A DNA stretch of 58,099 nt from Ectocarpus siliculosus (lineage: Eukaryota; Sar; Phaeophyceae; Ectocarpales; Ectocarpaceae), in the NCBI GenBank assembly GCA_000310025.1, contig FN648422.1, forward strand, positions 62,630 through 120,728, in the 5' to 3' direction. The notes below the pieces were generated by a model. That model was not told the origin of the DNA. It saw only the letters and a program-made list of their open reading frames with translations, and ran no database searches. Shown in pieces: positions 2,284-44,800 of the stretch (position 1 is the first letter of the stretch; each line of letters starts with the position of its first letter). The translations under genes and the position numbers were made by a program.

Positions 2284-5200
2284 CCTGTACAACAGCAAGG
2301 TCGTCCCGAGGCAGCGCGGACGTGAAAGCAAGAGGGTGAAACACGGCAAAACGGTCGCGTTCCCCACATTAAAACCAACGGGGGTTCGACCATAGAGAGA
2401 CGGTGTGAGGAGGGGGGGCATGGGTGAGCATCGGCGCGGTGCTAGCAGACGATTTGGAACGCGCGCTGGGATTCAGTGTTTGTGGACACTGCGCGTTTGA
2501 AAACGACGCAGGGTCCAAAGAATGTGCAAAAAATGTGCAGCATGACATCAATCGGCAAGCGGATCGAGATGCAGGTCGTCCGTGGCGTTGCAGCACGTGA
2601 GTCGATGGCCGTCCGAGCGGGTGTAGTTGGGCAAGGGAGCGGCTATGTACTTCGGAAGAAGAAAACTGGCGACTCAAGGAGGAAGCCAAGAGCAAGTCTG
2701 CTCTCTCTGCGGGCAGGGAGGAGGCCGCGAGCAGTGTACGCTATAGTAACACTTCACAACGATGTTACGACACAACATTCGCGTACCCCACCAAACGCGC
2801 TGAGACGGCAAATCGCTAAAACAAGTCGAACTGCGGCGTTGTTGCCCCCCCCCCCCCCCTACGACAGACCACCAAGACAAAGGCCGCGGCAAAATTCATG
2901 CGTGTCATCTGGTTTACCTTCTAGCACAGACGGTGTTCCCCAGGCGGTCGTTGTCGCAGCCCCTGCATCCCTCCGCGACGCTGCATTCGCCGCCGCCGCC
3001 GCCGCCTGCTCCGCGGCCTTTTCTGCCCTAACGGCAGCTTCTGCTGCCTTCGCCGCTGCATCCTCAGCGGCCGCGTCTGCCTCCGCCGCCGCCGTCGCCG
3101 CCGCCATCGCTGCTAGGGCAGCCTCGGACGCTTGGGCTTGGGCATCTATTGGCCCGTCGGACTGGTAGGACACCACCTCTGCCGTCGGGTTGGTGTGGCT
3201 AGGCCCGTTTTGCTGATGCTGCTTCGGACAAAAAACAGAAAGCGTGACGTCCGTAGCCGTCAGCACGAGAAAAGAGGTGCAGACGTGCAGCATCATTTGA
3301 TCTTGCGCGGAATTTGCCCCCTGGCGTAAACTCAGGCTCCCGGCCTCCGGCGTTTTTGCCCTGATTTCATGCGCGAGAGCACGACACGACTCTCACTGGA
3401 AAATACCAAGTAATTAAATATTTGAGAGACAGGTAACGTTGGCAGTGCAATCGCACGCGGCTGCACTACACGACAAGCCCACCCACACTACCATTCTCAA
3501 GAGATGCACACGTAGAAACATCGTCTTGAAAGGTACGACTCCGACCACAAAACAGAGTTCAACCACACAAACGTGGTCATACCAAAACTGCAATCTCTTC
3601 GCATGGCGGACATGGGTTCTTCAAAGAAAGTGCATCCTTATTGGCACCCCCAATCTGCCCCTGTGGACCTCCAATCGTTCCTCGCATGTTCCCAAGGATG
3701 GGACGTAACAAAAACCATCAAGCAACACCCCTACATATCCGCGCGCTAAACAGCCGGTCGCCCCGGCGGTCTAGTTGGTATCCTCGAAACCTTCTAGAGG
3801 TCAGGTCAGGGGTTCGAATCCCGGCGTAAGCGAGCTTTTCGTGAAAAGTGGTTTTTTCTCTCGCTTCCGCTCCTGGCCTAGTGGATAGCGCTAGTTCCTG
3901 TGTACACAGAGGGAAGAGAGTGCTGAACTTTTCTCGCATTAAAAATCGAAGGCAAAGTACCGCAGGAGGGGACGGTAGAGAGGGGCCCTTCTGTGTGACT
4001 ACGGGTTGGAGTAAACGGCACTAGTGCTGTGAGCGCTGATTGGAATTGAAGAAAAAAAAAAACAAAAAAAAACATGTGTCGACAAAAACATGTGTCGACA
4101 CAAATGATCTGTTCCGCCGTTCAAACCACATCCTAAGTCACCGCTGCCGCTAAATTTGTGGTGGGGTCTGCTGTCGGATAAACTGATATGGTATGGGGGA
4201 AAGGCCTGAGATTAGACCACGAGCAGGGTCGTTCACAGCTGGTGGCTCCTTTGGGCTCACAACACTCACATCACTTACCGCTCCTCGTGAAGGGGTCTTC
4301 GATGGCGTCGCTGCTGCGCCCCTGACTGCCGTTCCCTGCCCCGCCGCCGCCGCACGCGCTAGCTCTTCCTCGACCGCTTGCTCGTCAGCTGCCTCGGCTT
4401 GTGCTTCCACCACCGCCGCGTGGGCCTCCGCCGCCGCCTCCGCTTGGGCGTCCGCCACAAAGGCGGCGACCCGCGACGATCCGAAGGACGACCCCATCTC
4501 CCACCCAGCACCGATCGAGCTGTCCCCGCTGCTGACCACGCTGTGGGAAGCGGCCTTGATGTCGGCTGTGCTCGGGGTCACCGCCGGAGAGACCTCGGTG
4601 ACCGGGGTGTTGGCGGCTCCGAGGATAGCCGGGATGATGCGGCCCCCTTTCTTGCCGACGGCGAGGGCGTTAATGCCGCTGCTGCCCATCGGTGACGGCA
4701 GGCCGTCCACTCCGGCAGGAGACTCGAGCTGCCACGCGAACTGCCCCTCGTCCATCGGGGAACCGCTCGTCTTCCCCGCCTTCGAAGCATCGCCACGCGC
4801 GGTGAACTCCGGCGTGCAGTCTCTCAGGGCGCGATCAGGCGTGGCCACCGGGGTCGCCCACCCCGCATCGCCGCCGCCGCCGCCGCCGCCGGGGTGTCCG
4901 CCCTTGGACATGTCTTCCGGCGCAGCAGCGCGCGTCGACTTCTTCGTCGGGATCGCTGTCCCGAAGGACCCGCGATCGGGCGTGGCGACGGGGGTGGCCC
5001 ACGTCGCAGCCCTCACCTTCAAGGCGGGGCCTGAAGGGTTGGTCACGCCCTTGACCGTCCCAGGAGGCTTCGGAGTCGTGAGCGCGTGACCAGCGTTGGG
5101 AATCCCGGGCGGCGAGGGCGCCAGCATCGAAGGACCAGCAGCCTTAGGAGTGTCGGGGCCAAGCGTCGGAGGATCCGCCCTGGACCTCCCAGGCGTCGCA

Positions 5201-8200
5201 CTTAACCCAAACGAAGAAGAAGGACCCCCTACGCCCTTCGGCGTTAACGCCTCGAAGACATCGACCACCTTGCTCACGCGCGGGCCTCTGGGAGACTTTG
5301 CCATCGGCGTCGTCGCCGGATTCAGCCCGCGGCTAGCTCCACGGAGCGGGGTGCGTCGCGGAGTGGTCCCTTGGGCCTTGGGGGGAAGGCGGAGCGCCGC
5401 CGCCGCTGCCGCCGACTCTCGCTGCTCGGGCCCACAGGGGGCTTCGCCAAGGTCGCCGCCATGCTTGGGGGCAGCCGCGAAATCGGGCCCCTGATCTACC
5501 GTCGGCGCGGAAGGTGGTCCTCGGCGAGTCTTGGCAGGGGTTACCGAAGCGACCGTAACAATGGTGGGTTTCCCGGTAACAATGGTGGGTCTTCCCCCTT
5601 TAAGAGGCGTGTTTCCGCCCGCTTGCGGCCCGGTGACGTCCGTCCTGCCGTGCGACGCTTGTGGCGGAGAGTCTCCAGATCCAGATGGACTTATCGGACC
5701 CGACTTTCCCACGTTGCTCGGAGAGGCGGAGAGAAGCCACGAGTAGTCGCTCTGCTTCCTTGCTCCGCCCAGCCGCCTCGCGCTGAGGGCTGGCTTGGGG
5801 ACCTCGCACTCCGGCTCGGACACGACCATGCCCGGCCTCTTGACCACCGGCAGCTTGCTGGTGACTACTTCGGCCTGCTCGAAGGCCTTAGCCGAGATGC
5901 CGTCCACCGACTGAGGCGAGAACGCGGGGGCCTCTCCTGCCCCCGGCGCACGCGGCGTTGCCGCGCCAACGTCCTCGGGTTCCTCGACCTTCTCCCCCGT
6001 GCTTTCCTCTCCGGCCACGCTTCCCTCGCCGGCCTCCGTCGCCGCCACGAAGGCCGCCGCCTCCGCAGACTTCCGACTGCTGAAGCTGTCTCGCGTGGAC
6101 ACCATCCAGTCCTCCAGGGGCGCGGGGGCGGCGGCCTCGGGCTCGGGATCGCCGGCTACTGCCGCCTCCGCCATCTTCTTCTCCGCTTCCGCGGCGTTCA
6201 CGGGGCCTGGCGACTGCTGTCCGATCAGGGTCGGGGCGCCGGCCGGCTTCTGCCTGGTCCAAGCCGGCGACTTGATCCCGTTCCTATCCCACCTCCCGCT
6301 CCCGCTGCCCGGCCTCTTGACCGAGATGCCGTCCTTCTTGTCCGCGCCCTTAGCGGCGGCTGCGGCCAGCTCCGCCACAACCTCCGCGTCGGCAAACATG
6401 CCTCCACCTTCCTCCTCCTCTTCCCCGCCCCCGCGCGCCGATCCGTAGCCCCCGTTGCTGCTGCCCCCTCCCAGGCTCGCGAACTTGGAACTTCCCCCGG
6501 TGCTGTTGAACTTGCCGCTACTGCCCCCGGTGCTGTGGAACTTGCCGCTACCGCCGCCGGTGCTGTTGAACTTGCCGCTACCGCCCCCGGTGCTGTTGAA
6601 CTTGCCGCTGCCGCCCCCGGTGCTGTGGAACTGAGCCCCGTTCGCCATAGCCGATATCATCGGGTTTCTCGTGACGACCTCGGTGCTCTCCTCGTGCACA
6701 GGGGAAAGAGCTCCCAGTTCCGCCAACCCTGACACAGACGCTCCGCCATTGCTGCTACCCCTTCCACTGCTGGCAAAGAGGTCACCATTCATACCGCCGC
6801 CGCCGCCCCCAGTAGTGTCTCTGTCGACGACACCTCCACCATGCGCGGCATCGCTTGTACCGCTCCCGGCCACCGTAGCAGCCTCAACGCCTTTGACTCG
6901 ATTCTTGCGACGCTTGCAGCAGCAGCACAAGACCGCACCCAGCGCAACCACCGCTAGCGCCGCTGTGGGTATGACCGAGCGGGGAGGGGAGGGGGGGGGG
7001 GGGGTCTCGCGGATCGTCTAGGCACATGGCAGCATAGACAGAAAGCGCAGTGAACACACCAAAAGAAGGCCTGGTACAGTAGAGCACGACAGCTACGACA
7101 AGAGCCGTGGCCACACTTTTCATTGCTTCTCCTGACACTCTGAGCTGTGCGTCGTGTACATGATCGGTAGTAAGCTACACTACACATATCGAGGGCGCTC
7201 TAGAAATGCCACACAAAGATCGGTGGTCGTCTGTGCACTTCCCAAAAAGTCGACGCTTAAAACCCAACGCCTCCGTACTTTCAAGGCAGACGAAACAAAA
7301 AATTGCAACCACGAAAACACCCAAGGCCAACAACATACAAGGAAGCACGCACCTGCAACCGCGACGATTACGATGATCCAGTTGAACGAGTCATCGTCAC
7401 CGGTTTCAGCGGCGGCAGCCACCTCTGTGTCACCGTCATCTTCTGCAGCAGTGTCGCTCGAGACGGCTGCTGCCACGATCTCAAAAGTCTCGCTCTCGCC
7501 GTAGCTGCTAACCTCCTCGACCCTATCGCCGACGAGAAAGGAGTAAGCACTGCCGGACTCGAGCCTGGGGGGAGGAGGCGGCAACAACAAAAAAACGAAT
7601 TGAAAGAGGTGGGTCAGACGGGAAGAAAAATACGCAAAAAAATACGGGGGTGCTCCGCTGCATCGCGTTCTACCGCTCCTGTTCACGTGTTCGGGGTGTG
7701 AATGGGGGCAGCAAGGGCGCGCGAGATATACATAGCAACAATCCACGACAAGCGCAATTCATGATGAGCTCGGCGCCCTCATGAGGACCCGGATACTGAC
7801 AAAATCATTGGCGGCCCAAGCAACCCGAAGGGTGTGTGTGAGACGGAAAAGCCGGCCGAGTCAATTCAATCGTGCGGCGTCAACACAACCCGTTCTTACC
7901 GCCAACACAAGCCAAAAATGGGCGCCATGTCTGCTGCGCAGCACGTGACTATCAACCCGCCGCTGCTACACGACAAGAAGAAACACGGCCGCAACGAACA
8001 CCAAGCATCGTGCCAGGGCAACAACAACATGGCCAATACTACTGCGGATACGTGGTGTAAAGTAGGCTTTGTTAAAGTTTCTTACCCGTCAGGCAGCGTG
8101 ACGACAAGGAAGCCATTCGGGGCCAAGCACCCTCCGTCGCAGAGCTGATCGCCCACCTGGCGCGACGGCAGGACACGACGAGCGCGACAAGAAAAAAACA

Positions 8201-33241: not shown

Positions 33242-35844
33242 ATGTATTTGTACAGGATGTGAACTTGTTCACCATCCGATCCCGTCACGGCGCGTGGCCC
33301 GTTCCATCCTGTCCCACAGCGGTGTACCTGTGTTGTGTTACTGTGACAGCAACTCGACGAGTATCGTAGCGTTGCCTGTCTGAAGCTGTCAAGTATTTTA
33401 GCGGTTAATAAAAAAGTCGAGAGCGCACACAGCGACCGCTCGTTCACCGAGCACGACCGATAGCTCGCCGAAAATAAACGTATCGTTTGACATCCTCGTC
33501 GTCGTGGACTACCATTATTTAGCTGTAAATATTGATGAAGGGAACATTTGACTTTTATTACAGTCTACCTTTCTTTCTTCGCCTCAAGGTTTGCCATGCC
33601 AACGGGATTCGGTGACGGTTCACCTTCGAGCTAAGTAAGGTAGTAGCTCGTTTCTGTCAGGACAGTACGAACTCGTGACGACGTGTTACAAAAAATGTCA
33701 TGGACAACTGATCGACCAACAAATCCATCCACGGCCGAAAGCCGAAAGGTTGGGATTTCAGTAGTGCGAGAAAAGGATGAAGATGGCATTTCGGTAGCTT
33801 TCATTTGGGAGTGACGAAGGAGGGGGGAACGCAACGGGAAAGGGAAGAAAAGACAGGGATGAAAACGATGACTGAGAGGAAAGATGGATGGCGTGGAAGA
33901 AAGCAAGACAAGAGTTTCGAGCCAGTGGGAATATCGGAATATTGGCGACAAGAGGTGGCGGTGAATGCAGGGAGGATGATGAGAGCACCCCCAGACGAAT
34001 GCGCGTTCAAAGTAGCAGCCTCCGCAAACATGCTTTTTTTCCTTCATAACATTGCCTCCCCCTCACGGGGTCCCAGATGATGGCCTTGAAAAACCTTTCG
34101 TCTTTTCAACCGCGTTGAGACTCATGTCATGTCTTTTCCGTTGGTCGGCCGGTTAGAAATCACTCAATTTGAACGCTGCGCTGCACAGAAACTGCCACCA
34201 TTCCAACTTGACGAGGCGAGCGGCAAGAACTTCGGTGTAGGGGCCATTTTGGTCACGCGAGGTCACCACCAGAATAGAATGGCCAAGAATTTCGTGAGCG
34301 TACAGAAAATCAGTCTCGAATTTTGTCACAACTTTTCTGCCACATCACAAAAAAAATGGAATGCTGAACCTCTACCCGCGACTGAGGCCCCAATTTGAAC
34401 TTGGGGAACAACTACAAACCGAATGAATGTATCACCGCTCTACGACAGACGCCGTTCAATTGGTCAGTCTGTTACGCGGTCGACGCAACGCACGACACCG
34501 TACACGAAAAGAGCATGAAATCCATCGACGGATGTGTACCACAAGCAAATGCTTCTAGTTGTTGATGTTGTCTTCACACCAAAACCCGATCTGGTTTCTG
34601 CTAAAAACTCGCTCCGGTCTCCGCTCAGTACCTTTTAACACCCGTCCCAGTCCAACTGACGCGAACGCCTGTCGTAATTACAAGGCAAAAAGAGGGTACG
34701 CAATTGCATAACAAAGAAACAAGGACCCAAAATCACCGCAAGACGCGATAAGTGGTGAAAACGGGAAAAAGCGAACACGATATGAGAAAAAAAACTGACC
34801 GCGCACACTGGACGAAAAATAAATATGGAGATGGCGTGAGGATAAGGATTTTGGCCTAATATGAAATTAATCTTACTGTCAAGCAAATCTTTTGTAATCC
34901 CTCATCCTCCTCTCTCGTTACATGACGCCACCAACTACGTTCAGAAGGGAGGACGCTGTCGTTGACAATCAACCGCAGTTACCAACGTAAAAATCGAACC
35001 CGCCTTATATAGGAACTAGCTCTGTATGGAATACAGATAAGTAACGAACAAGTTCTTCGTGGGCGGCATTGGACGCTAATACCGCTTACAAAAAACAACA
35101 CCAAATGTACGGCACCTGGAAAATGTAACGACCGCCCACGTAGTACACCGGTCTACTCTATCGCACGCCACAGAACGTACGGCATTATTACACCTTCGAC
35201 CTCTTAAGAAAAAAACTGCTGTGCTGTACGGATGTCTTCGACGGCAGGAAACACGAGCCTCACCGGACGTGGTAATTCTACGCTGCCAAGCATACACTCG
35301 CCTCGCGACAATACAAACGAGCCTCAATCAATCATCAACAAGATTATATCGTAAGCTAACCAGTGCCGCCCAATGTGCAAGATCAGCCCGCGGCTCCGCA
35401 ATGCAACACCTTTGCGGGCATGCATCCGTCATCATCGTCACATCTGCTTTAAAACCACCATAAGAAACTCTTCCCCCGTGTTGACCCGTTAGAATATATA
35501 ACCTTCCACCAGGGATGCTGCCGAACTGGGCACACGCACCACCAGCGGCTGCTGCTGTATTCATGAGAGTTGAACAGGTTTCGAAGCAGCCAAGCATGGT
35601 TTTCTCAGCAAGCGAGAAGCCGTGCTTCGCAAAGTAACAATCACCACAGAGGTCACATGGCGCACCATATAGCGGCTGCCTTCGTACAGAAGCGAGCCTT
35701 TCATCAAGCGATTTCATACTTACCTCCACAAACTACAGGGCGTCGAGCAGCCCCCACTACAGCGCCCCTTGCGATCACAAACGCTGCTCGCAACCAAAAA
35801 ACGCGGCACGTGTTGTTCCTGCAAAAAGAAAAAGGCAGGACGAC
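33242..35844. other. Gene-free stretch, includes the 3' flank of the beta-helix gene
   Basis: No exon with splice support on either strand. The 3' part (35200-35844) probably holds the 3' untranslated region of the minus-strand beta-helix gene. Confidence 0.5.
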
Positions 35845-38800
35845 CTAGTCGGTAGACGGTTGAGATCCATCCGCGAGTGTCGCTCCGTTCTCGAGGTCGA
35901 ACGCCACACCGTCGGGGAGTTCGTTGCCCGTCACAAGGGTCTCGGTCGAGTCGTCGAAGCGGAGAGTGTCGATGCCGGAGAACTTGTTGTCGAGGATCAT
36001 GGTGTTGTCCGACTCTTTGACCGCAATTCCCTTTTCCTCTCCAGGGTCGGAGATGGTGTTGTTCCTGATAACGTTCAAGCGCGGGCGTCCGTCCCAGTCC
36101 GCCGAGGCCTGCGAAAGAGAAGAAAAGGGCGTGCGACGAGCGGAGGAACGGATGACCCGAGGAGAAATTACCTATCGCGGCACCAAAACGGAGTAAAACA
36201 CGCTACAGCATTAGGGTTGCACATACTGACAGCGAACTGAGAGCACTGCCGCGGGAAGCGGAAGATGCAGTTCGTCTCGGCAACCCATACCCATGTGCTG
36301 CCGACGTAGAGAATACCCCAGACGACTACGGACTACAAGGTGCGATACAAGAAGAACATGTTACGTGGAGGGACGCAAGAAGAAGAAAGCCGTGCCCCAG
36401 ATCTAAACACGGGGGGGGAGAGCCCAAAACGATTATTTAGGGTCCGCACCTCTGCCTCGTCGCTGCCGCGGTAGAAGAACACCCCGTAGCGAGTTGAGTC
36501 GGACATGACGTTGTCGTACACGTCGCATTCCTCAGCACCCAGGCTCAAGCGAATGCCGTACTTTCCTCCCTGAGGTCGTGCGATTGTACGTAGTTCCACG
36601 TGCATTTATTGAGTGTGATCGGCATCCAGAACGGATGTCAGCATAAGTGACGCCTTCGAATCGGCCAAACCTCATTCCAACTAACTTGCCTACGGACTGT
36701 CCCGCACATTGGAACCTCTCATTTAGATCTCTAAATCCTGAGGTTCCAACCTTCAAAGTGGAACTTCGCAGTATATGTTGTTCCCAAGCCAAGAACCTTG
36801 TGAAGTAGGATTTTGTGCCCAATCGTGCATTCTTGTACGCCAAACAAAGAATCCATGTCCAGAACATGTCGATCCAACACACAGAGAAGCACCAAGTCTA
36901 AAAACCTGGCTATTCCGTTGCGTACGGGACAGAGATATTTTTCCCACCCTCAATAACAGTGTGTAACATTAGGAGCAGACACTTCATCTAAGGGTCGAAA
37001 GTACGACGTGTAGCGTGTGGACACGCTCGTCTGAGCGTCTTCGTGCACGCGGGAGGGATGGGGGTTGTTCGACTACTAAGGCAAAGGTGGCCAGTTTCCC
37101 ATGCAGTGGAAGCTCCCACTTCTGCCCCCCCCTACGCAGGACAGCTACCCCAGCGAAAAGTTAATGGCCGCCGGAGCTAGTAGGGCCCAGCAGTCGTCCT
37201 GTCACATCTGCGCCGTCTCTTTCCCGACTCGGCAGTACACGAAACGTCAACCTGAATCGGTTTTGACCATTGCTCACTTACCTCCATGACGTTGCCGTAG
37301 ACCTGAACGCCGGTGCTCTCCACGATGCCGAAGTCTCCCTCAAGGTTACGCCTGCAGACGTTGTCGTACGCCTCCGCGTAGTCGGTGGACCGGTGGAAGA
37401 AGATGCCCGCACGAGCGTTGTCCTCTACCACGTTGTCGTGGACCACCGCACTGTGCGACCGCGCAGGCAGAGAGGGGGACAAAATGATGAAGAGTGACTA
37501 CGATATTTCATCACTCTGCCAGATTGCTGTTGTCATGGGTATTTTGATTATGTACCATCGTCAACCAGCGGCTCAGAGAATCCTCGCTTCTAGATATGCG
37601 TGGTGCCTGCTTGCATGCGTCATGTTTTCGAGGGGATTACTGCTGTACTCCCGAGATCAGAGCGGCAATCAGTCACTCCTGTTTTTGCGATAGCAACAAG
37701 TTTCTTCTCGGTTTTCCCGCCACCCTGACTACATGTACCAGCCACTCTTGAAGTGAAATGTACCGGATAGATGAAAAATGTAAATATTCGTGGTTGGTCC
37801 AGGATTCCTGTACATCTGCAACTCTTTATCGCTCCACAGAAGCCGTACGCAAAGCACAAGCGCAACACTTCGAGCGGGGGGGGCGCAAACGCCAGACAGT
37901 TACTTACCGTTCGCAGCGCTTGCTGAACTCGATGCCGTGCCATCCGTTGTCGTGAACCTGTCAGGTAGCCCGACACAAACGTATCACGTGTCAGCTAACT
38001 GTGTACGGTAGGTCTATGTATAATTTCGGCGTAGGATTCACAAACCGCAGACGCGCCCTCTCGATGTGTGCCAATCGATAGTCAATAGGACCAAGTCAAC
38101 GATGCAGGGGAGCCCCCGAGAGACTTCGTCTCCAATTACCAAGAGCAGTGGAAACCGGCACCAGGACATGGTGTGAGATGCGGGCGATGGGCGACAGATA
38201 ATGTCCCATCTTCAGAGCATGATTTGCCTTGAGGGCGTGTTCACGGAGACCAATCTATGCTGCCCAGAGGCTGGTTACGGGAGATTTTGCCGGTAAGAGC
38301 CTCAACAGAAAAGGTCCACCACTATTTCTTGGAAGCACGCTCGATTCGGCACTGCACAACCTTTGCGATACCGCGACACGTGGTCCAAGAATCAGCTTCC
38401 ATTATTCCACGGCAAGCGCGACATACATCAGACTTGAGGCCATTTTCTCTCACGTGGTTTTCGCTGATCGTCATTCCGTCGCTGTTGTCCTGCGGGTTCA
38501 TCCCGTTGAGGTAGTTGTCGTAAATCTGACATGAGTACCGAACGTCACCGAATCGCGGAGTAGGGGTTGAAGCGGGTCACAGGTTGCCGAAAACAAAGCT
38601 ACACGAGACTAGCGGCAGCATTGTGGAGCGCTACTTGTGTTGTGTACTACTTGTGTTGTGCTACATATCACCCGTGACGTAGTAGCATCGACACGAAGAT
38701 CACAGAAACGACAAGGCAGCAGCCAAATACCTCGTTGTCGGTCTCTCGTGTAGCAGCATTGTGGAGCACTACTTGTGTTGTGCTACATATCACTCGTGAC

Positions 38801-41800
38801 GTAGTAGCATCAACACGAAGAACACAAAAACGTCGAGGCAGCAGCCAAGTACCTCGTTGTCGGTCCAGTTCGAGTCGCCCTTCATTCCGTAGCAGTCTGC
38901 AGGCCATGCACCAGAGGATGGGATAATGCGGGTTGTAGGCGAAGCATCGGTGCGTCACATTAGGAAGGACGGGGCCCAAACCATCGCACCAAGCAGCGAA
39001 TCGACTTAACGTCAACCCATGATTGTGGTGGTTTGTGAGAGGGAGCAAGTGCTGCGGGCAGAGACTTGAGGAAACGACATATATCTCAACAAGCCGCTGC
39101 AAACCATTACTTTGGCGGAAAAAAGCAATGGGCGAAACCAATAGGGCACTGGCGTACCGAAGCGATGGATACCTACATGAAGGGTTTTAGATGTTCCGAT
39201 TCCGGAGCCTGCGGCTATTGACCCAGCATCAACAGCGCATTTCTGCCAAAATCGCGCCGGCCGACCTACACCAAAAACAGCGGAAAACAGCAACCGCTTC
39301 CGTTTGATGACTCACATGCGCCAATGTAGTTGTCGTGGATGCTGTTGCGCTTGAGGCCCCCGTATACTCCGACCCTGTCGAAGATACCCAGGTCTCCTCC
39401 ATAACGGTCGTCATACCCCTGGACCTTCCAAAGGAGGCCGTAGTCCGAATCTGAGGCGGTATGTAGAGGGGAGAACGTGCCAGGTACGGAAGTGCTCACT
39501 AATGCTCTCGGGTGCTTCACGCGCAAAAAAAATTGCCATGATCTACGTTGCTGTCGCCCAATATCCAAACCCTCGATAAGTATATCCATTCCACGTCTAA
39601 CGTGCCGCGTGAAGGCAAGACGCGCAAACGGCGTAGGATGTACAGGTGGACAGGGGGGATAACTCACAAAGAGCCTGCGCATCAACTCGGACAGTACTTG
39701 GAGGAATCCCGTTCGACATCAGCGTCGCGTGCAACAGAGTGCACAGCGCACGGAACGTCAACATTATTGCGTAGATTGTCGCCGAGAGAGAGGCGAACCG
39801 GGCTACAACAAACCCTGATCTCTAACGGTCACTCAGCGGGCCTTACACCGCTTTTTATGGCAGCACAATGCTGCAAAAAACGCTGCATTTCTGCAACTTT
39901 TCTTGCAGCTTTGCTAATGTACGCTCAGTATGGGAGCTAAAAATTGCACGAAGAGTTCTGCAACTTTTTTCCGGGGCGAAAAGCTGCAATCTGGCCGAAA
40001 CGTTTTTATTGCAGCTTTTGTCGAGTCGGGAAGGGGCAAGAAAAGCTGCACGGCGGAAACTATACCAGTTCACGTCAAGCTGCTACCGCACACATAGACC
40101 CTCTCCGGCATCGATTGTGGGAGGGCTGTAATCACCGATTTCTCGACGAATACTGAACGAGTTGCCTCATGAATGGTATCTGGAAGGAGGTGATGCCATG
40201 GGCTGTTGGGCAATGCCAAGGTTTGGGGCCGTGAGGTGCCGAATGCGCCGGGAAAAGTTAATGCTGTGCACAACCGTCAACGGCCGCGAGCGGTTAGTTC
40301 AAGCTCGATGTTTCTGACCGCCACGGGTTTGGTTATCCACCGATAACTTTCCGAAGGAGGAAGCAATAGCAAGGTCGCTCGGTGGGAGGTAGCTCTCTGC
40401 TCCATCTTTCATGCCCAAGGTTTGATGCCATGGGGTACCGTGCGCATGGGGAAAAAAGTTTTGATCGACCCCAAAGTACTGACGTCAGAGATCAGTTGAT
40501 TCAAGTTCGCAGGGATTGTGTTCGCATCGTTTGGTTTTCCAGCGATAACTTTTCGAAGGAGAAGGCAACAGCAACAGCAATGTCACCCCGAGGGAGCTAG
40601 CTCTACCCAGCATCTTTCTGGTACCAGGTTAGATGCCTTGGGTTATCGTAAGTGTGGAGAAAAAGGTTGCAACTACACTCTCCCGCGCGCTTTGACCGGT
40701 CCTTTCGCGGTGCAATATGAAAGGCGCGTGCCTTCTTCTCCATTGCTAAAAAAAAAAATATCACGCCTCCGCATTCCGCCAGTCCCGTGCACAAAACTTT
40801 CTTAGTCCCACAAGTAACGCGCATCAAACGTTCCATTGACAAAGTTTGGAAGAAAAGCTGCAGGAAAAGTTTGCAGCTTTTCTTGCAACATTGTACTGCC
40901 ATCTTAGTCCCACAAGTAACGCGCATCAAACGTTCCATTGACAGAGTTTGGAAGAAAAGCTGCAGGAAAAGTTTGCAGCTTTTCTTGCAACATTGTACTG
41001 CCATAAAAAGCGGGGTTAAAGGCCCTCCTGATCCTTCCCTCCGTTCAACAATGTGGTGGTAAACGATGAAGCGCGGAAGGGTAAAACGCCACACATCACG
41101 ATGCGTACCGATGTCGTTGTGGTAGTCCCCCTCGTTCCCCAAGAAGGATATCTCCGAATCCTCGACGTCCATCCTTGAAGTGTAGACGATGGTTTGCGCC
41201 CCGTTCTCCCCGCTCAGGGCTGCGATGTAAGCCCTGCCCTCGAGCCTCTCATCCGGGCCGCCGAGGGAGGCATCCCACGACGTGATGGCGGTGTCGAGGA
41301 TGGAGAGCTTCCCATGCCAAGCTATGATGGGCGCAGAGGAAGTTGTGTCGCTCTGGGCATGGGGTCGCGAAGAGCAAAGACAGACGCGATGATGCCGCCG
41401 TCAACCGGGGGTGGTGCATATGGTGAGGCATGGCGTGGAGGAATTGGGCGGAGGGAAGCATGTGTTGCGGGTTTCTTTTAAGGCCCGTCACTCTAACACA
41501 CGTAGTGGCAGAGCGGCAAACACTGTGTGACTCTCAAACGGCGTCAACGTGAAACGTTCCCAGGTGGTGTAAGACACCAGTGTGTGCCAGGTGGGTTCCC
41601 GCGTTCGTAGCAGGGTCGGACTACCGGCAACTCGAACCTTCAGTTTCAGAAGAGAAACAGCCGCATCCGGGGAAGAAGCCTTGGACGCCCCGTGAATCTC
41701 GAGGATGGAGCCATCGCGAAGCCAAATCTTGTTGTTCAGCGTGTACTCCGTGCCATCTTTCGACACCGTATCCGGCAGGACGAGCCTGATCTGCTCCAAC

Positions 41801-41812
41801 GTCACGCGGCAC
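35845..41812 (-). CDS. Mannuronan C5-epimerase-family parallel beta-helix protein, catalytic motif degenerate
   Basis: Nine exons on the minus strand: 41812-41638, 41352-41109, 39450-39316, 38896-38853, 38525-38454, 37957-37908, 37450-37282, 36569-36450 and 36108-35845 (stop). Every junction is GT-AG and every phase agrees (0, 1, 1, 0, 0, 2, 0, 0). This gives about 420 residues plus an unknown N-terminus. Family cues are CRVTLEQI, GTEYTLNNKIWLRDGSILEI, IIAWHGKLSILDTAITSWDA, DSDYGLLWKV, a series of beta-helix rungs rich in H-D-N and Y-D-N, NGWHGIEFSKRCE and AGIFFHRSTDYAEAYDN. Related enzymes convert mannuronate to guluronate in alginate, in the wall or secretory path (known). The usual Y-G-F-D-P-H catalytic stretch reads N-G-M-N-P-Q here, so activity is doubtful. 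The first exon starts in phase 2 and needs an upstream exon with a signal peptide. Candidates are an ATG frame at 42118 and the secreted-protein exon at 47607-47402, whose end phase fits. Confidence 0.85.
39838..41025. mobile_element. 1.2 kb inverted-repeat element in an intron of the beta-helix gene
   Basis: Both ends read inward as GGGCCTT-A-ACC-CGCTTTTTATGGCAG and then CACAATG/TACAATG with TGCAA, about 36 bases with a few mismatches. The interior is full of GCTGCA/TGCAGC words (AAAAGCTGCA, GCAGCTTTT) and contains two perfect-length 102 bp tandem units. It lies within the intron 41108-39451. No coding capacity and no clear target duplication were found. Confidence 0.7.
40801..41004 (+). repeat. 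Tandem duplication, 2 x 102 bp
   Basis: Units 40801-40902 and 40903-41004 are nearly identical (one difference noticed, ACAAAG versus ACAGAG). Each ends in TTGCAACATTGTACTGCCAT, which is also part of the element's terminal repeat. The outer end has thus been duplicated. Confidence 0.95.
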
Positions 41813-44800
41813 CTTTGGTTTCGGTTACCAGGGAACGGGAACACGCGGGGAAGCCGAGTCAAACGTGGTTGCATTTTGTGAAGCAAGTCAGCAACAAAAA
41901 ATGCCCATATGCCAATGCGGACCGTGTACACAAAGCGCACACAAGAGTAAATACAAAACAATTACGTGTTGCCATCAAGCAGCAATTTGCGTGCTACTAG
42001 AGAGCTTTAGGACCGGCGTCCGCTGCGGGGCGGAGAACGGAGTGGGGGCTGGGACGGGGACACCGATGTCCTGCGGCAGAGGGACCATGCCACCTCTGGC
42101 GGCAACGGCGCGTACCATAACAAGCTAAATAATAATGAACGCAGTTTCTCCACATGAAGTACCACAGGCGTGGAGAAGTCAAATCAACAAAGCAGCGCCG
42201 ACGAGCCCCTTGGGTGAAGTTGCTCTTGGGGAAGCATTGTGAAGAGGCTCAGGACCACCTTCCATGTTTGAAATTTCGCCAGTAGTTGGGCTCGTCTGAT
42301 GGGCGCTATAGGACGCCGATGATCTCAGCTTGTGTGCCCACCGTCCGCTTCGGTGGAAGAAGCACAGCGTCCCTCAGATATTCCACCTCCAAGTCCGTGT
42401 GTTCAACCAGAAAGTGCCTGCAAGTCACTGCTGTGTCATGTACCCCTTGTACACTCACGAACACAGACTACGAAACAACCGTGGGAAACTGGAAATAGCG
42501 CCTGCAGAGTAAGACGGATGTATCCAGAGTAATATATACTCCGTATCTGCTTTGGTTCGTTGAGCTTCCCTTGGCTCTTCGAGCCAAAAGTCAAGAGAAC
42601 ATCAGCTGTGTGAGCTGTTGAGCTTGGGAAACACATGCCAACCTGTATTCATTGTCATCTTGCATGACTCCTTTGACTACACCGTTCTCTCGGGATCAGC
42701 CCACTCCGGATGGATAATTTGGTATGCATGTAACAACTATTGAGTGTGCGGTTTCAGTCGCCCACGTAGATCCAGGGTGGCACCAGGCAGCTGGTAGTGC
42801 GCCCACCGCATGCCCGGGCGTTTTGTGGCCAAAGCCGGAACTTTCTCGTGATACGCAAGGCTCCTCACAAAAAAACAGAGTTGCACAAAGGAGATGGCGT
42901 TTCGCGCAGAACAAAACGAAAAAACATGAATCTAGAGTACGCGATTTGCACAAAGCAGCTTTGTACCGGGGAGACGAAAAAAAAAACGCAAAACCATCGT
43001 TTTAATACTTCAGTAGTAAATAACGTTTTGCGCCGTAGATTGAAAAATTGAAATGTGCCAAATCCAAGCCTCTACATACAAGTTTTTGCAGCTTGAGAAC
43101 ACCCGGTGCACCAGCTACATATTAGCGTTCAATCCGTTTGTTGATCGGACATACACACGTGGAGAACGGCGGCGGCGCGTCAGAGGACCCGGAAGATACG
43201 TCATATTGGCCAAATGTCGGGCTGCTGCATGCATCTACACACAGTTCACAATGACACCTCTAGAATCGTTTCTGGTGGTCTGCTGCTGCTGTCGAGTCAT
43301 GCGACGCAACTCACAACCCATATCGGTAGGGAGTTTCGAGCAGTGTGGGGTTGCTCGTGGCGTGCTGTACTGTCGGCAACGGAAGCACACGTTGCCGCAC
43401 TGGTTCACCAAAAAAAAAAAATTCGGCAGGAAGAATGTGCTGAAATCGCAAAAACTCCAACCACCTCGACCTCTCACGCTACAAGGCCTAAACTGATAAG
43501 CGGCACAGTTTGATCGACGGGGTTGCTCAAGCTGGTATGATTTCTCCGAAAATATTAAGTAGAGGTTTGTGTCTCCTGAGGCTAAGCGCCAGAGGGAACA
43601 ATTGAGCTTGTACCGCTGCCGGCGGGGGCACCGACCGGGACTATTTACCTAGCAGTTTGTCCTGTGAGAAATACAAGGATACGTATGGTTAGGGGGGGGG
43701 GGGGTGTACTCATAGTCGTGCATGCCGTAGTCGTTTGACCATTGACCTCGCATCCCTACAAAGCCGGGACGGAGCACGCCGGGTTCTCACCGGACCAGGC
43801 TCTCACATCACCAAGCGCGAAGCGCCGTGAGGTATTTGGCGAGTCGCATGAAGGGTGAGCTGCATCCTGCTAAGGGTGTTCGGCATCTTGTGCTTACTTC
43901 CTTGCGTACGGATGACAGCTACGTATGACTTAATTTATTTTCTGGTGCTTTCACTTCCAGAGACAGTTGTAAGCACTGTGTAACTGCCTCGAGGAAGCTT
44001 GACCATTTTAACACAACGAGGTGCGATCATCCCCCGTTGCGCGGAGTGAGGTTTCTCGACCCCGCACAACATGATCTACTCGACCACCATTATGGTTACC
44101 GCCAAAAAAAAAAAACGAGGTAAAAAAAAAAAACGGTAACCTGGTTGCCGAGTTCACGAAGTGAATTGGCTTGTTTTACAACGTCGTTGCCAAGCGACGA
44201 AAACCCAACCCCGATGGCAAACACCGGGGGGGGGGGTTAGGGGGGAAACACCATCGCGGAGCCGCCGGGACACAGGGACAGTGGACGGCGAGGAGCCTTG
44301 CATAGCCTTCAGACAACCAATGACAACAACAGATTAGATCCAGGATCCGACCGCTTGGCGTCAGAAGAACTCCGATAAATCTATTTGTCGTTAGTACACA
44401 CCCACGAAAGCGGGCCCTTCTCGGAAGAATGCCATGTGTAGACTACAGAGTTTTTAAGTTGGCGCCCGCACTTGAGAATTTGGGAGTTCAGGCTCAAAAC
44501 ACGACTTGGACATCAGAACACGTGCTCAGTCAAGAAGCCTATGTTAAAACCTACATGGACGTTGTTGGGGTATAGAGAAAATAAGAAGCGAGCCTCGGCC
44601 GAAATAGGTGGTCCGCACTACCGAATACGACATAAGATAACACACACTCTGGGACCGATTTTCAAAGCTCGATTACTCCACGACCAAGAGGGTGCATGAA
44701 CGAAACGATACGTTTCCGGAGAGCTCTCGACCAGACGGCTTCAACGCCGCCGTTCTCGGCGCTGCGTCTCTTTCTGCTGTTGATAAATCAAACATTGGAA

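Follow-up and report, generated by a model that had tools for sequence, protein, structure and literature searches.

The window analysed here is a stretch of 58,099 nt (contig C64, positions 62630-120728), and its minus strand carries, at 41812-35845, a homologue of the brown-algal mannuronan C5-epimerases (ManC5-Es) spliced from nine exons (Table 1). Exons were placed with a home-made splice-aware aligner, using a single-exon paralogue on contig C16 as the query. No stop interrupts the frame between 41812 and the TAG at 35847-35845, and it is open over 421 codons; at the 5′ end of the gene the stretch from 41748 to 41812 was added on the basis of the open frame and an AG acceptor. Eight internal introns are supported and seven of them are GT-AG. 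For the eighth, the aligner took a GC donor and ended the exon at 36456; an alternative GT donor lies 6 nt downstream, at 36449, and gives a junction that reads ...SDEAE|ASAD. The original prediction that frame and splice sites are intact is thus borne out, the eighth intron having a GT donor available.

Table 1. Exons and associated features of the ManC5-E homologue in the window
Feature	Coordinates	Strand	Basis
Candidate signal-peptide exon, MATRNCFVFTLVCALCTRSALAYGHF...	41896..41975	-	Hydrophobicity scan of upstream ATG-started frames
Putative intron, 83 nt, weak GT donor	41895-41813	-	Joins candidate signal-peptide exon to exon 41638..41812
N-terminal beta-helix exon, CRVTLEQIRLVL...SLLKLK	41638..41812	-	Spliced alignment from 41748
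Exon, SDTTSSAPIIAWHGKLSILDTAITSWD...RMDVEDSEISFLG...NDI	41109..41352	-	Spliced alignment
Exon, SDYGLLWKVQGY...SIHDNYIGA	39316..39450	-	Spliced alignment
Exon, YCYGMKGDSNWTDNE	38853..38896	-	Spliced alignment, family comparison
Catalytic-site exon, IYDNYLNGMNPQDNSDGMTISENH	38454..38525	-	Spliced alignment, phmmer, family comparison, frame scan
Exon, VHDNGWHGIEFSKRCE	37908..37957	-	Spliced alignment; carries conserved His and Lys
Exon, RAVVHDNVVEDNARAGIFFHRSTDYAEAYDN...NVME	37282..37450	-	Spliced alignment, family comparison
Exon, GGKYGIRLSLGAEECDVYDN...YRGSDEAE	36450..36569	-	Spliced alignment; GT donor at 36449 preferred
Last exon, ASADWDGRPRLN...ADGSQPSTD, and TAG	35845..36108	-	Spliced alignment

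Upstream of the aligned exons, MATRNCFVFTLVCALCTRSALAYG, beginning at 41975 on the minus strand, is a candidate signal peptide with a predicted splice to the next exon. The hydrophobicity scan returned four candidates in 4.8 kb, one of the three others being more hydrophobic than the one at 41975, and a chance occurrence is possible. On this reading the gene product would probably enter the secretory pathway. Third-position GC content (GC3) of the gene is 0.81 versus an intron GC content of 0.52, and the 19 paralogue models described below range in GC3 from 0.59 to 0.92. Some introns contain rearranged DNA. Between exons 41352-41109 and 39450-39316, the intron harbours what looks like a DNA transposon (39845-41016), with inverted ends of 43 nt that are 88% complementary and 1086 nt apart; within it, 102 nt are duplicated in tandem at 40800-41003. 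A direct duplication at 38638-38865 (122-nt spacing, 91% identical) occupies part of the intron that precedes the catalytic exon and also sequence before that intron; it repeats the end and donor of exon 38896-38853 and may thereby supply a second donor. Elsewhere in the window, a 955-aa open frame at 4153-7017 on the minus strand occupies a stretch of about 64% GC and has no Pfam match.

Searching the whole genome (189 Mb, 492 contigs) revealed at least 19 further ManC5-E loci, to which the window gene is related. This family, together with genes rich in introns, points to a brown alga or a close sister as the source. A profile of 18 of the 19 other copies, from which the fragmentary C368 and the window gene were left out, matched at 310 bits over profile positions 35-414 of 414. 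Right-handed beta-helix repeats (PF13229) scored 71.5 bits on an early gene model against a cut-off of 25.9, and TIGR03804 scored 44.3 bits against 19.45. The NCBIfam AlgG equivalog model, with a cut-off of 700 bits, gave 42.7 bits; the DPHD-bearing copy C181b reaches just 64.7 and the model is hence not diagnostic. Intron positions also connect the gene to its paralogues, since 3 of its 8 introns match in position and phase, one of them in C368 alone. The intron 3′ of exon 41638..41812 is common to C26a and C14, and that 3′ of exon 38853..38896, in phase 0, is common to C33a, C33b and C475. The catalytic motif YG(F/I)DPH(D/E), also tried as a mark of membership, is absent, and NGMNPQD stands in its place.

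The catalytic-site exon reads NGMNPQDNSD where the family has YGFDPHDDSD, and spliced alignment returned exactly the boundaries, 38525-38454, that the original prediction had given. In a phmmer search against PDB chains, NGMNPQD aligned without gaps to YGIDPHD of Pseudomonas syringae AlgG (4NK6, 4OZY), a beta-helix epimerase that can be aligned with the window gene over the catalytic rungs. AlgG residues were numbered from Tyr314, a position named in PMC4444821, by counting onward in the printed sequence (317, 319, 339, 345); on this numbering the Tyr, Asp and His at AlgG positions 314, 317 and 319 are replaced by Asn, Asn and Gln, in agreement with the three substitutions predicted. Asn aligns with the Tyr that serves as general acid, Gln with the His that is the catalytic base, and a second Asn with the active-site Asp, while the Gly, Pro, next Asp and Ser of the motif are retained. 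His230 and Lys236 of the protein model align with AlgG His339 and Arg345, and both positions are conserved; Lys is likewise found in the other algal copies in place of AlgG Arg345, which we take to be a charge neutraliser. Other changes near the site are Ile to Glu (HGIE) and His to Met (YGM), the Met of exon 38853..38896 replacing the His of a YGH present in most family copies. A six-protein algal profile, window gene included, matched AlgG with E ~2e-29 and AlgE4 with E 1.6e-9. The motif was in register with both, the alignment by which the prediction was to be checked, and Azotobacter AlgE4 has YGFDPH at this same position. A true motif in another exon had been named as the finding that would undo the prediction. 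Six-frame scanning of 35501-42300 revealed no DPH, a motif split by an intron being invisible to such a scan, and NGMNPQD was the sole motif-like exon match in the gene.

Published work on characterised enzymes indicates what these substitutions might do. AlgG is reported to use an arginine, and to have the His of DPHD as base and a water molecule, held by Tyr314, as a possible donor (PMC4444821). For AlgE7, PMC8824271 reports about 0.5% activity for Y149A, Y149F and Y149H, a similar level for H154Y and near-detection-limit activity for H154F, and also that D152N is more active than D152E. Single Tyr or His mutants of AlgE7 are thus nearly dead, whereas in the window gene both residues have been changed naturally. 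Since acid and base are both replaced by amides, epimerisation is very unlikely, and the protein is likely to be dead as an epimerase, judging by its residues.

Across the relatives recovered, the motif is otherwise constant. DPHD is present in all 19 other loci of the genome among the matches listed, and the preceding Tyr is visible in 18 of the 19 models. The remaining model, C368, starts past the Tyr position, and the bases upstream of it lack an in-frame Tyr; an exon may be missing. Relatives fetched from other records, a set biased by the fact that one of the two fetch patterns contained the motif, comprise 10 bacterial loci and 1 viral contig and keep YGFDPH(D/E) in 11 of 11 cases (YGFDPHD in 10, YGFDPHE in the viral contig). 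Together, the 19 loci and 11 relatives indicate that loss of the motif is derived, the window gene descending, by this comparison, from a motif-bearing ancestor.

The original prediction had described the surroundings of the active site as intact; a change confined to that site is not supported, as the gene is divergent throughout. Identity to the 19 paralogue models is 32-40%, and of 65 family-invariant columns, defined from 15 of the 19 paralogues (leaving out the near-identical copies C181b, C13b and C25 and the fragment C368), 17 are lost and 48 kept. C16, the next most divergent copy, keeps 65 of 82 invariant columns and a complete YGFDPHD. Invariant columns are changed in 4 of 8 cases within the motif versus 13 of 57 elsewhere (Fisher p=0.19), and we dropped active-site-specific loss as a statistical claim on this result. 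By count the losses are not concentrated in the motif, yet it is the chemical residues that are hit and the structural ones that are spared. In a tree from which C368, L054, L055 and L056 were left out, the window gene falls outside the remaining algal copies, a position that is weakly supported (65), and its branch, at 1.33 substitutions/site, is the longest of any copy in the genome. Given this weak support and the introns shared with paralogues, descent within the algal family is preferred, and a separate horizontal transfer was rejected. A viral origin or viral orthologue was also rejected: tblastn with the protein of the window gene as query found nothing in phages. Viral contigs scanned with this protein contained no relative; when a family alignment of four sequences served as query, one distant contig came up, the one with YGFDPHE.

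Constraint on the gene was assessed over 352 codons with a codon model in which the window gene and 14 of the 19 paralogues (C181b, C13a, C13b, C25 and C368 left out) made up 15 taxa. Fixing omega=1 on the window branch gave lnL -13351.5 versus -13316.4, a fit worse by about 35 units; for each omega the length of the window branch alone was re-optimised, with the remaining parameters fixed at an earlier fit. Because dS is saturated, this result says only that omega was below 1 on average over the branch. An omega estimate for the branch was dropped, its length being at the bound and the likelihood climbing towards small omega. We also simulated an unselected copy of 401 codons, with indels assumed at 10% of substitutions. 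At 5% neutral divergence the frame survived with a frequency of 0.18 when only stops were counted and 0.005 when stops and frameshifts were counted. Function lost only recently, with less than a few per cent of neutral divergence since, may be compatible with the intact frame. The prediction of a maintained and not a decaying gene stands on the open frame, splice sites, GC3 and rejection of omega=1; for recent time it is unproven, dS being saturated.

Based on these results, we give about an even chance to the reading that the gene encodes a brown-algal pseudo-epimerase, a ManC5-E expected to attach to mannuronan or alginate but not to epimerise it. The protein would enter the secretory pathway and fold as an AlgG-like right-handed beta-helix in which much of the polyuronate groove is kept: within the motif its Gly, Pro, Asp and Ser, and elsewhere the Lys/Arg of SKRC and the Arg of HRS. 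Amide substitutes keep hydrogen bonding and would be compatible with a groove that still binds. With neither abstraction of H-5 nor reprotonation at C-5, mannuronan or alginate would be bound and left unepimerised. Alginate binding is a plausible leading function, and the product might be an alginate-binding protein or a regulator. Its most likely use would be in occupying or escorting alginate chains, whether in competing with or recruiting epimerases encoded by DPHD-bearing copies or in protecting the chains from lyases. We regard as somewhat doubtful the more specific proposal of an old ManC5-E lineage that abandoned catalysis but has been retained, its product being a secreted protein of one domain, alginate-binding or epimerase-regulating.

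Other explanations account for parts of the same evidence. If function had been lost recently, the gene could be drifting with its frame intact by chance. Its branch, the longest of the genome's copies, and its 17 lost invariant residues would fit such a history, as would the partly decayed appearance of other copies (C25 lacks part of a conserved exon), several paralogue models being short because the fetched stretch or local alignment ended. The open frame and usable splice sites speak against drift, however, as do GC3 (0.81 versus 0.52 in introns) and rejection of a neutral branch, and a neutral frame rarely outlasts about 5% divergence, whereas a lineage with 32-40% identity to its paralogues is old. 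Drift is on this basis rather unlikely, and maintenance by selection is likely. That same age and divergence, the new residues near the site (Glu of HGIE, Met of YGM) and the retained His230 and Lys236 would also suit an enzyme that is still active, either on another uronan or with other residues doing the chemistry. Acid and base are nevertheless Asn and Gln, and the alignment offers no evident compensating pair, which makes an active enzyme unlikely as well. It is highly improbable that an assembly or gene-model error conceals a true YGFDPHD exon. The duplication in the intron before the catalytic exon indicates that the area has been rearranged, but six frames of 35501-42300 contain no unsplit DPH, the changed codons share a single open exon bounded by splice sites of its own, and among the matches listed the locus has no second copy in the genome.

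Alginate is a main sugar polymer of the cell wall and is stiffened by the epimerase family. If the window gene, described here as a proposed pseudo-epimerase at even odds, is maintained without DPHD, part of the ManC5-E family may act by binding and not by catalysis, and counts based on the motif could overlook such members; an epimerase that is naturally dead would also be a candidate alginate probe. The gene resembles other brown-algal ManC5-Es in family homology, some introns and the SKRC and HRS blocks. It differs in having NPQD, without the Tyr, where a survey reports DPHD in all and takes it as the mark of genuine epimerases (PMC11468063). It would be an exception to that statement. The same source gives an average of about 27 ManC5-E genes per brown-algal genome and 11 in Schizocladia ischiensis. 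In AlgE enzymes, non-catalytic alginate binding belongs to separate R-modules, according to PMC12269086. Judging by titles and abstract openings, none of the reports we found describes an algal ManC5-E lacking DPHD or a pseudo-epimerase branch in this family, and none of the papers searched combines mannuronan C5-epimerase with pseudoenzyme.

Several other loci have features of their own. L003 (G000:C16:4274441-4275202) is an intronless ManC5-E with a 782-aa open frame and intact DPHD, in which SKRC is changed to SKYC and HRS to HFV and GC3 is low (0.59). Its tail is rich in Ser/Thr and ends in a hydrophobic stretch; the locus may be a retrocopy whose product carries a membrane or GPI-type anchor. 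L037, L038, L039, L040 and L041 (contigs C181, C13 and C25) are closely similar and apparently recent duplicates. Among these, the C25 model is missing a portion of a conserved exon, the end of the C13b model is divergent, and some of the duplicates may be decaying. Among the fetched relatives, the top scores against the algal profile belong to L046 and L047 (an unclassified MAG and a Verrucomicrobiales MAG; 40% identity), whose open frames match the profile twice; the survey names Actinobacteria, at about 30%, as the closest bacterial representatives (PMC11468063). Finally, L055 (CALJNA010000114.1, labelled as a Granulosicoccaceae MAG) contains GQYSYGHQGGVWTNNKMHHNIQYGFDPHDDSDDL followed by a stop, resembling an exon and the start of an intron, with 51% identity to the algal query, and appears to be algal DNA that ended up in a bacterial bin.
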